DNA from: Ferroacidibacillus organovorans
GTDB taxonomy: Bacteria; Bacillota; Bacilli; Alicyclobacillales; SLC66
Length of the DNA stretch: 64,000 nucleotides
Direction of reading: 5' to 3'
NCBI RefSeq assembly: GCF_001642725.1
Contig: NZ_LSUQ01000006.1
Coordinates: 1-64,000, forward strand
Part shown: positions 308 to 2,978 of the stretch, one piece after another
Position numbering within the stretch: position 1 is the stretch's first letter
Layout of the letters: each line of letters starts with the position of its first letter
The notes under the pieces: model-generated
What the model saw: only the letters and a program-made list of their open reading frames with translations
Databases searched by the model: none
What the model was told of the DNA's origin: nothing
Translations under genes and position numbers: made by a program

Positions 308-337
308 TTGACGTATGTATATGCGAGACAGTATCAT
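308..337 (+). promoter_or_regulatory. Sigma-A promoter of the fluoride operon
   Basis: TTGACG (308-313), an 18-base spacer and TATCAT (332-337). Transcription would begin near 344, a few bases before the riboswitch aptamer, which supports the assignment. Confidence 0.65.
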
Positions 338-349
338 TCAAGTAATTGA

Positions 350-397
350 ATCGCGATGGAGCTCGCATAAGCCCGGCCGTGGGATGATAGCCCCTAC
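350..397 (+). promoter_or_regulatory. Fluoride riboswitch aptamer (crcB motif)
   Basis: The segment has the features of the crcB-motif fluoride aptamer: a GCGATGGAGCTCGC hairpin element, a short CCC/GGG helix (372-374 with 381-383), then GATGATAGCCCCTAC. The GGAGCT at 358-363 can pair with AGCCCC at 389-394, with one mismatch, as the aptamer pseudoknot/closing helix. The same transcript reaches two crcB fluoride-channel genes, which is the expected regulon. Identification is by eye against the known consensus; a covariance search was not possible. Confidence 0.85.
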
Positions 398-441
398 AAG
401 TGTCCTTGGAGGAAACTCTGTGGCGCTTGTGGGGGTTTTTT
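391..441 (+). terminator. Riboswitch-controlled intrinsic terminator
   Basis: CCCCTACAAGTG (391-402) pairs over 12 bases, with two G-U pairs, with CGCTTGTGGGGG (424-435), followed by six T. The 5' arm contains the 3' end of the fluoride aptamer. Ligand-stabilised aptamer and terminator are therefore mutually exclusive, as expected for an ON switch. Confidence 0.85.
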
Positions 442-510
442 GCTGAGATCGAGTGGGACGCGACGATCGCAAAACCTAAAGAGACTGCAACACCTAGAGG
501 AGGAAGTTGT

Positions 511-753
511 GTGAAACAGGGAGATCGCCTGGAGGCGCGCGTGGTTGCGCTCGATCAGCGCGGCGCGTGGGTGGAGCATCAAGGCATTCGCGCGTTCGTG
601 CCACTCGCAGAACTCGCGTGGTACGAGATTGAGCACCCGACGGTTTCGCTTGGCGTTGGCGATTTGGTGCGCGTGCGTCTTGTAAAGAAGATGGAGGATG
701 GGGTTTGGGCGTGTTCCGTTCGCCGGGTGGACGTGGATGGGACGCTGACGTAA
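511..753 (+). CDS. Small S1-domain RNA-binding protein in the fluoride operon
   Basis: An 80-residue protein made almost entirely of one S1/OB-fold domain. Seen are the opening GDRLEARV (4-11), the typical GIRAFVPLAEL strand-loop (25-35) and GDLVRVRLV (50-58). S1 domains bind single-stranded RNA. The GTG at 511 is chosen because AGAGGAGGAA lies 6 bases upstream. A longer in-frame GTG at 400 would fall inside the riboswitch terminator. It is the first gene after the fluoride riboswitch and precedes the crcB pair, with no terminator between, so it should be induced with the channels. Its role there is unknown; an RNA-related protective or regulatory role is speculation. Confidence 0.85.
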   Translation: MKQGDRLEARVVALDQRGAWVEHQGIRAFVPLAELAWYEIEHPTVSLGVGDLVRVRLVKKMEDGVWACSVRRVDVDGTLT

Positions 754-821
754 GGCATGAATAGAGGCGTGGCCAGTCGGTTGCGCGACAGATCGATAGA
801 GACAACTTCGATCAACGAAAG

Positions 822-1274
822 GTGTGTCAGGTGTTGGCTGAGGAGAAAAAACGCGAAGAAACGTCGCGCGATCTGTCTTTGCGGGGGGATGTCGCGCGCC
901 AATACGGCGCAGTGGCAGTCGGTGGGGTCATCGGGGCGCTTTTGCGCGAACTGCTCGAGGTGGCGGTGCCACCCGTGCACGGGTTTCCGCTGGCGACACT
1001 CTTGATCAATTGGTCAGGAAGCTTTGTGCTGGCGTGGTTTTACACGGTCACCATCTGGCGCTTTAAGGTGCCGCAGTGGCTGCGCGCGGGCATTGGAACG
1101 GGGATCATCGGAGCGTATACCACGTTTTCCACGTTTGCCGTTGAGACGAACGCGCTTCTCATGCATGGGCAAAGTGCAACCGCACTTCTCTATGTGGTCC
1201 TCAGCCTTGTCGGCGGCTTTCTCATAGCGCTGCTCGGAAGCCATCTGGGCGGCGAGAGGAGGGAGATCGGATGA
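822..1274 (+). CDS. crcB: Fluoride channel subunit CrcB/Fluc (first of a pair)
   Basis: CrcB/Fluc proteins are small four-helix dual-topology channels that export fluoride. The family marks are GGVIGALLRE, the Asn-containing TLLINWSGSF helix and GTGIIGAYTTFSTF, which carries the Phe-box Thr/Ser/Phe residues. At 150 residues it is longer than its partner because of a hydrophilic N-terminal tail of about 25 residues. GTG 822 is used; GTG 831 and TTG 834 are in frame and the upstream AAAGG does not decide between them. Its stop overlaps the next crcB start (ATGA), the usual arrangement for subunits that pair as antiparallel heterodimers. Confidence 0.93.
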   Translation: MCQVLAEEKKREETSRDLSLRGDVARQYGAVAVGGVIGALLRELLEVAVPPVHGFPLATLLINWSGSFVLAWFYTVTIWRFKVPQWLRAGIGTGIIGAYTTFSTFAVETNALLMHGQSATALLYVVLSLVGGFLIALLGSHLGGERREIG

Positions 1275-1633
1275 TCGAGTGGGTCGGCGTTGCCATCGGC
1301 GGAATGTTTGGCGCGTGCACACGCTTTTTTATCACCAATCAGATCAACGCACGCTTTAAAAAAGGCTTTCCCGTCGCGACATTTCTCATCAACATCACAG
1401 GCGCGTTTTTACTCGGCTATGTCTATGCGGCGGCGCGTCCGAACAACCTTGTGGACTACTGGCTACGCAGCGCCATTGGCATCGGGTTCATTGGGGCGTA
1501 CACCACGTTTTCCACGTGGATGTTTGAGAGCGCAACACTGCGCGATCGGCGCGCTGTGAAAACGATGGTCGCCTATCTGCTCGCGAGTCTGGTGGTCGGA
1601 CTGTTTGGCGCGTGGGTCGGTTCACGCTTGTAA
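1271..1633 (+). CDS. crcB: Fluoride channel subunit CrcB/Fluc (second of a pair)
   Basis: A 120-residue second Fluc subunit, the standard family length. Motifs are GGMFGACTRF, ATFLINITGAFLLG and GFIGAYTTFSTW, with four predicted membrane helices. The ATG overlaps the upstream crcB stop by four bases, so the two are translationally coupled. Expression is expected to be fluoride-dependent through the riboswitch at the head of the operon. AGAGGAGGGAGATCGG just before the ATG gives a strong ribosome-binding site inside the first gene. Whether the channel is a heterodimer or two homodimers cannot be told from sequence. Confidence 0.94.
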   Translation: MIEWVGVAIGGMFGACTRFFITNQINARFKKGFPVATFLINITGAFLLGYVYAAARPNNLVDYWLRSAIGIGFIGAYTTFSTWMFESATLRDRRAVKTMVAYLLASLVVGLFGAWVGSRL

Positions 1634-1748
1634 TTTGTGGCGTCACTTAGGAATTACTTGCCAAGACGCGCTGTGTCTACTACCCTTAACCTATTGAATA
1701 GGAATAAGCGAGAATCGTTTGTTCAAATGGGCCAAAGGGGATGGCGGG

Positions 1749-2978
1749 ATGAGTGACTCTTTTCCAATCGATGAGGTTCGCGCGCATTTTCCGGCGCTGA
1801 AGCGTCTGTATCACGGCCAGCGTGTCGCCTACTTTGACGGACCTGGCGGGTCGCAAGTGGCGCAATCGACGATTGATGCGATGACCTCTTACATGGCGCG
1901 CGGCGGCGCGAATCTGCACGGCGTCTTTCCGACGAGCGTTGAGACGGAAGCGACCATCGCAGACGCAAAGACAAAACTGGCGGCACTTCTTCATACGCAA
2001 CCGTCGGAGATCGCATTTGGCGCCAACATGACAACCCTTACGTTCGCCATAGCGCGTGCACTCGCAAGAACGTGGGATGCGCAGACAGAGATTGTCGTGA
2101 CGGAACTTGACCATCGGGCAAATGTTGACCCGTGGCTCACGGCGGCACGCGATCGCGGCGCAAAACCGGTGTGGCTACGGGTGAATGAAGAGTCACTCGC
2201 GCTCGATCTTGATCGTCTTGATGAAGCGATTACCCCACGCACGAGAGTGGTCGCGGTGGGACTTGCCTCCAATGCAGTCGGCACAATAACGGATGTGCGA
2301 CGGATCGCACAGCGCGCGCATGAGGTGGGGGCGCTCGTGGTGGTTGACGCGGTGCATGCAGTACCGCATTTTTCCGTTGACCGCGAAATCTTGGACGCTG
2401 ACATCCTGTTGTGTTCAACGTATAAGTTCTTTGGCCCGCACGTCGGCGTTGCGGCGATTCGCGAGGTGCTGTTTGCGCAAATCGACGTTTACAAACTGGA
2501 CCCAGCCCCAACGTATGATCCGGACAAACTTGAAACGGGAACGCAGAGCCACGAAGGGATCGCGGGGATTGGCGGCGCGCTCGATTTTCTGGCAAGCCTT
2601 GGCGACGGGACGACGCTGCGTGAAAAGATGATTTCTGCCATGAAACGGATCGAGGCGTATGAGGACAGTCTGGCGCGTCACATGCGCGCGGGGTTACAGG
2701 CCATTCGTGGTGTGCGGCTTTTTTCGGCAGAAGAGGGAATCCCTAAAACGCCGACGCTTGCGATCACGGTCGATGGGAAGAATGCGCGCACTGTGTGCGA
2801 GCAAGTGGTGGAGACAGCGAGTGTTTTTGTGGCGGATGGCCATTTCTATGCGAGTACACTGGCTGATCGGCTCGATGTAAACGCCTGTGGCGGCTTTGTG
2901 CGGGCCGGGATTGCGCCGTACAATACGCAAGAAGAGGTGGATCGCTACCTGAATGCCTTAGAGCGAATCGCGCGGTAG
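1749..2978 (+). CDS. Cysteine desulfurase-like class V aminotransferase
   Basis: A fold-type I PLP enzyme of the NifS/Csd superfamily, about 409 residues. The PLP lysine is in CSTYKFFGP (Lys226), preceded by the cofactor-binding aspartate in VVVDAVHAVPH. The region where SufS-type enzymes carry the catalytic cysteine reads FVRAGIAPYN, without cysteine. It therefore resembles the cysteine desulfurase-like subfamily, whose substrate is not established, rather than a true sulfur donor. ATG 1749 is preferred to an upstream in-frame TTG because AAAGGGG lies at the right distance. It stands alone, with no suf or isc genes beside it. Confidence 0.85.
   Translation: MSDSFPIDEVRAHFPALKRLYHGQRVAYFDGPGGSQVAQSTIDAMTSYMARGGANLHGVFPTSVETEATIADAKTKLAALLHTQPSEIAFGANMTTLTFAIARALARTWDAQTEIVVTELDHRANVDPWLTAARDRGAKPVWLRVNEESLALDLDRLDEAITPRTRVVAVGLASNAVGTITDVRRIAQRAHEVGALVVVDAVHAVPHFSVDREILDADILLCSTYKFFGPHVGVAAIREVLFAQIDVYKLDPAPTYDPDKLETGTQSHEGIAGIGGALDFLASLGDGTTLREKMISAMKRIEAYEDSLARHMRAGLQAIRGVRLFSAEEGIPKTPTLAITVDGKNARTVCEQVVETASVFVADGHFYASTLADRLDVNACGGFVRAGIAPYNTQEEVDRYLNALERIAR

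Follow-up and report, generated by a model that had tools for sequence, protein, structure and literature searches.

Known fluoride-resistance genes code mostly for exporters, antiporters or substitutes for inhibited enzymes. Short proteins made of a single S1 domain, like GSP13/YugI and YabR of Bacillus subtilis, have to our knowledge no link to fluoride. It has been reported that enolase, pyrophosphatase (PPase) and formate hydrogenlyase genes are associated with fluoride riboswitches (PMC11139923, PMC2864571), PPase genes being common associates (PMC11139923). The locus described here lies in a window of 64,000 nucleotides, which is the whole stretch of Ferroacidibacillus organovorans DNA that was analysed. 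It resembles the regulons of fluoride riboswitches (RF01734) in having an aptamer with an overlapping terminator ahead of crcB, and aptamers of the same GTDB family are also found before eno, PPase and hydrogenase/formate-hydrogenlyase-type genes. It differs from these regulons in that a gene for an S1-domain protein, or for an S1 domain joined to a pseudopyrophosphatase, is part of the unit and that the aptamer pseudoknot mostly carries an A-C mismatch. A reading of this DNA from the sequence alone (hereafter the sequence-only reading) had held that such a gene is not a standard member of fluoride regulons. In agreement with this, the searchable literature, a scope that does not include the main list of fluoride-riboswitch genes (Baker et al. 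2012), yielded no mention of an S1 protein under such a switch. The finding extends the fluoride regulon rather than defining a separate kind of system.

The closest solved sequences to the window protein are the repeats of ribosomal protein bS1, best at residues 191-247, and domain 3 of bS1 is also among the best fold matches (7a05). In contrast to that domain, the window protein is single-domain and has the F19 and H34 positions replaced, and all bS1-like repeats score more than 55 bits below the S1 family on the family profile. GSP13/YugI and YabR are likewise short single-S1 proteins of similar fold, but their NCBIfam models give the window protein 13-18 bits against cut-offs of 171-183. 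The NCBIfam equivalog cut-offs were missed in general, the best scores being 29.5 against 577 (rpsA) and 18.0 against 171 (S1 domain-containing RNA-binding protein).

The leader and the operon behind it

The features of the locus are as follows.

308..337, + strand: promoter-like site TTGACG-18-TATCAT (10/12 consensus matches)
343..403, + strand: divergent fluoride riboswitch-like aptamer (crcB motif; RF01734, 21.3 bits; pair counts over 12 family aptamers)
389..441, + strand: intrinsic terminator, the putative expression platform, overlapping the 3' pseudoknot strand of the aptamer (fold of 340-450; similar hairpins in relatives)
499..503, + strand: Shine-Dalgarno sequence GGAGG of the S1 gene (sequence reading)
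511..753, + strand: S1-domain protein gene, GTG start, 80 residues (PF00575, 37.1 bits, cut-off 22)
822..1274, + strand: crcB, first Fluc fluoride-channel gene (PF02537, 89.6 bits)
1271..1633, + strand: crcB, second Fluc fluoride-channel gene, with an ATGA overlap with the first (PF02537, 89.3 bits)

The sequence-only reading had described promoter, aptamer, terminator, S1 gene and two crcB genes as an unbroken series. This order was borne out, and a pattern scan gave no further terminator on the plus strand from behind the riboswitch to the last codon of the second crcB. The promoter-like site is weak when taken alone, as chance alone would give 1.8 such sites in the scanned 3.2 kb. A longer S1 reading frame, opening at 400 within the aptamer, was discarded in favour of a start at the GTG at 511 because of the GGAGG at 499-503. 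At the other end, a VC1184-type cysteine-desulfurase-like gene (window 1719-2978) begins 85 nt past the second crcB; only a weak terminator-like site lies between the two, and in a related genome (G001) this gene is found behind the unit as well.

The default Rfam scan reported no fluoride switch in the window, because 21.3 bits is below the gathering score of 34. The gathering score is a curation threshold and no structural feature, and it is on structural grounds that 343-403 is named fluoride-riboswitch-like. The aptamer was recovered by a low-threshold scan (E 0.0016 in a 611-bp search), by pair counts on an alignment of 12 aptamers from the window and 11 relatives, all of one GTDB family, and by our own model (R1). 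The structural elements by which the riboswitch is recognised, namely the conserved CCUAC, the helices P1 and P3 and the long-range pseudoknot, are all present in 343-403. Across the 12 aptamers P1 is paired in 36/36 cells, P3 is 92% paired with compensatory changes, and the pseudoknot GGAGC/GCCCC forms five pairs of which four are invariant. Overall, 90% of cells are paired, against 35-50% in slid controls. The terminator consists of a hairpin at about 389-435 and a T tract at 436-441, and it dominates the fold of 340-450 (MFE -44.4 kcal/mol, z -3.6). An overlapping terminator and a fluoride-export gene downstream, which also mark such riboswitches, are thus both found at the locus.

The middle position of the pseudoknot is A-C in 10 of the 12 family aptamers and A-U in the other two. 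This mismatch may be a partial cause of the low Rfam score. It may also bias the switch to OFF or, as an A+-C pair, give pH dependence. The base that is changed at this pair forms a G-C within the terminator. It should be noted here that the P3 5' side in R1 is offset by one column, and that R1 was built with the hydrogenase-operon aptamers of G007 and G009, whose matches to it are by construction. The G009 aptamer has independent Rfam support, and an Rfam scan at E up to 1 gave no match to the aptamers in G007, G013 and G016.

A family of S1 proteins and its operon settings

When the S1 protein was searched against 101 genomes, a distinct group was found in the window's GTDB family besides the ribosomal-S1-like proteins, with the gene present in 10 of the 18 genomes of that family. 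A profile of the group recovers 11 full-length loci in these 10 genomes at 112-134 bits (126 for the window protein), and the next best scorers in the order, at 55 bits or less, are multi-S1-domain proteins. Among 299 genomes of the phylum, the window's own genome alone passes a cut-off of 1e-16. When 84,980 species genomes were scanned, the motif W[FY]E[IV]EHP[AST] turned up in seven Bacillota MAGs, which match genomes of the same family set, and three further hits, with 22% identity, came from other phyla. Outside the GTDB family the S1 family was thus found neither in the order, nor in 298 sampled genomes of the phylum, nor by this one motif scan. The S1 family looks lineage-specific, the contig scan being for one strict motif.

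The S1 protein stands alone in the genera g1 (that of the window), g4 and g5, and it is fused to a second domain in g2, g3, g7 and g9. The order aptamer-S1-crcB-crcB occurs in four genomes of three genera (G000, G001 with two copies, G005 and G015). Recurrence of the gene pair in related genomes was a check set beforehand by the sequence-only reading, and the gene passes it. In G003 the order is aptamer-eno-crcB-crcB-fusion. In G007, G009 and G013 the aptamer is followed by genes of an NADH-dehydrogenase/[NiFe]-hydrogenase-like complex and then by the fusion gene. The fusion is in turn followed by a PPase gene in G009, G013 and G016, whereas G007 has none there. The G016 contig that carries the aptamer and hydrogenase-type genes stops inside the S1 start, and the full-length fusion of this genome is on a different contig, beside a transposase-like ORF. 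The fusion in G002 is an exception to this setting, as no aptamer or crcB lies nearby. Altogether the S1 family is found downstream of fluoride aptamers in three layouts and six genera, and its membership of the fluoride regulon is well supported by these three layouts.

The gene is missing from 8 of the 18 family genomes, and G004 and G011 have aptamer-crcB-crcB without it. In two of the three genera with a stand-alone S1 there are sister species with aptamer-crcB-crcB or with no detected copy, and since such species do without the protein it is dispensable. Between G000 and G001 the S1 gene has a dN/dS of 0.23.

The second G001 copy of aptamer-S1-crcB-crcB (L031:5233-6502, contig C52) has an identical S1; its crcB frame contains an in-frame stop, and a TnpB-like ORF is close by. 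In genera g7 and g9, the loci where a fluoride-type aptamer precedes an operon of hydrogenase/formate-hydrogenlyase type are L036:1902-9864, L037:1360-9621, L038 and L041.

The S1 surface and the pyrophosphatase-fold partner

The AF2 model of the window protein is an OB fold (pLDDT 83) whose Foldseek matches are S1 structures including bS1 D3-D4, YabR and GSP13, and together with the PF00575 match this marks it as an S1 domain. We take F19, F22 and H34 (PNPase numbering) to be the usual RNA-contact residues of S1 domains. In the ten S1 members F19 is replaced by R, S, Q or T, F22 by W and H34 by P, and domain 3 of rpsA in the same genome has F, F and H at these positions. What the family keeps is the motif P-L-x-E-[IL]-x-[WF]-[YF]-E-[IV]-E-H-P. 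The sequence-only reading had spoken of a small RNA-binding protein; the S1 domain stands, and RNA binding is not assured because F19 and H34 are replaced in all ten members. Binding through the usual S1 face is doubtful on these residues. Net charge is the same as that of rpsA domains and is uninformative on RNA binding.

The fusions are found in six genomes (G002, G003, G007, G009, G013 and G016). They are single ORFs of 250-265 aa with an N-terminal S1 and a complete C-terminal family-I pyrophosphatase domain (PF00719, 109-159 bits in the three tested). In this they resemble family-I inorganic pyrophosphatases across the whole domain, and they differ by the added S1 and by the active site. 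The 14 active-site positions mapped on them are those of the E. coli PPase, D67 being the general base. Between 4 and 8 of the 14 are replaced, so that none of the six fusions has the full catalytic and metal-binding set of family I. D67 is replaced in every one, along with 3-7 further residues, which are E20T, D97N and D102N in G003, E31K and Y51S in G002, and K29V, E31R, Y51C, Y55I and D70R in G007, G009, G013 and G016. By comparison, all 14 positions are intact in nine of the ten stand-alone PPases of the family. In G009, the stand-alone PPase that follows the fusion (L050, G009:C98:30511-30966) itself has A at D67 and R at K142. From their residues the fusions appear to be catalytically inactive. 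The PPase part has a dN/dS of 0.10-0.31 between related species, and losses that differ by lineage, combined with low dN/dS, fit selected non-catalytic proteins. An AF2 model of the G003 fusion, made with six sequences, was poor (pLDDT 49) and was set aside.

G005 has a stand-alone S1 and no family-I PPase, and G002 has a fusion and no other family-I PPase; both have a family II enzyme instead. Both cases argue that S1 works without a family-I PPase partner. No genome of the family has a membrane-bound pyrophosphatase. An intact stand-alone PPase is encoded once in the window's genome, away from this locus, and no PPase remnant is recognisable between S1 and crcB in the window. Trees did not separate fusion from fission.

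Possible roles of the S1 protein

The sequences themselves show how the operon is built, that the S1 gene recurs, that it is fused in some genera, that the fused domain has lost catalytic residues and that purifying selection acts. The explanation that we favour, though tentatively, is that the S1 protein is a lineage-specific accessory of the fluoride regulon in which S1 is the constant unit and docks on the ribosome or on RNA machinery. The gene would be a genuine yet optional member of the fluoride regulon of one bacterial family. Binding of fluoride to the aptamer would disfavour the terminator, and the S1 protein would then be made together with both Fluc channel subunits. Being like bS1 domain 3 or GSP13, it could, under fluoride stress, dock on ribosomes or on the RNA machinery and tune or protect them while pyrophosphate hydrolysis and glycolysis are inhibited. 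The fused PPase-fold domain would probably be an oligomerisation or ligand-binding platform. Persistence of S1 in G005 without a family-I PPase argues for a role of its own. Against this explanation, the domain fused to S1 has the fold of a metabolic enzyme, not of an RNA enzyme, and docking on ribosome or RNA machinery is a prediction; moreover the F19 and H34 replacements, the dispensability and the aptamer-less copy in G002 weigh on the same side. To the known resistance genes this family adds an S1 domain and a seemingly dead, selected pyrophosphatase behind fluoride switches. These suggest that the fluoride response has a layer that is regulatory or acts at the RNA level, for which the 80-residue protein of the window is a handle for testing.

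Less probable, and still a serious possibility, is that the S1 domain does not bind RNA and acts as an OB fold for protein interaction, binding fluoride-sensitive phosphoryl-transfer enzymes (pyrophosphatase, enolase) and shielding or reactivating them, the fusion being a record of that interaction. The pyrophosphatase-fold fusion in six genomes, the adjoining enolase and PPase genes, and the conservation of PLxExxWxExEHP while RNA-contact residues are altered all speak for it. The family-I enzyme that it would shield is, however, missing from G005, and G002 has none apart from its fusion.

It is unlikely that the fusion is a sensor-adaptor in which the dead PPase fold reads pyrophosphate or Mg-F and S1 relays the signal to ribosomes or RNA polymerase, the window's species keeping only the output domain. 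This would be a dedicated link from fluoride and pyrophosphate stress to gene expression.

Instead, the fusions might have rebuilt their active site and still be active, or fluoride-resistant, as pyrophosphatases, with the stand-alone S1 as a leftover or an activator of them. Their PPase domain is complete, purifying selection acts on it, and PPase genes commonly accompany fluoride riboswitches (PMC11139923), but loss of D67 with several other residues in lineage-specific combinations, and a stand-alone S1 left unexplained, make this improbable. Equally improbable is a near-neutral hitch-hiker in the operon. The eight genomes that lack the gene, including G004 and G011, would suit it, whereas three fluoride-operon layouts in six genera under purifying selection would not, and a random gene would fall within 10 kb downstream of an aptamer in about 0.2% of cases (an estimate from 24 aptamers in about 50 Mb).

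Feedback of the protein on its own operon mRNA through the riboswitch leader (action on the operon mRNA was one possibility raised by the sequence-only reading) fits the four genomes in which S1 comes immediately after the riboswitch, but it is very improbable because the same S1 family comes last in the unrelated eno and hydrogenase/formate-hydrogenlyase-type operons and occurs once without an aptamer (G002), and aptamer-crcB-crcB operons exist without S1.

On the upstream side, some fluoride aptamers of genera g4 and g7 are immediately preceded by a gene for an NDH-2-like pyridine-nucleotide-disulphide oxidoreductase (L039:6307-7404, L069:342-1412, L077:1638-2762 and L036:623-1690).
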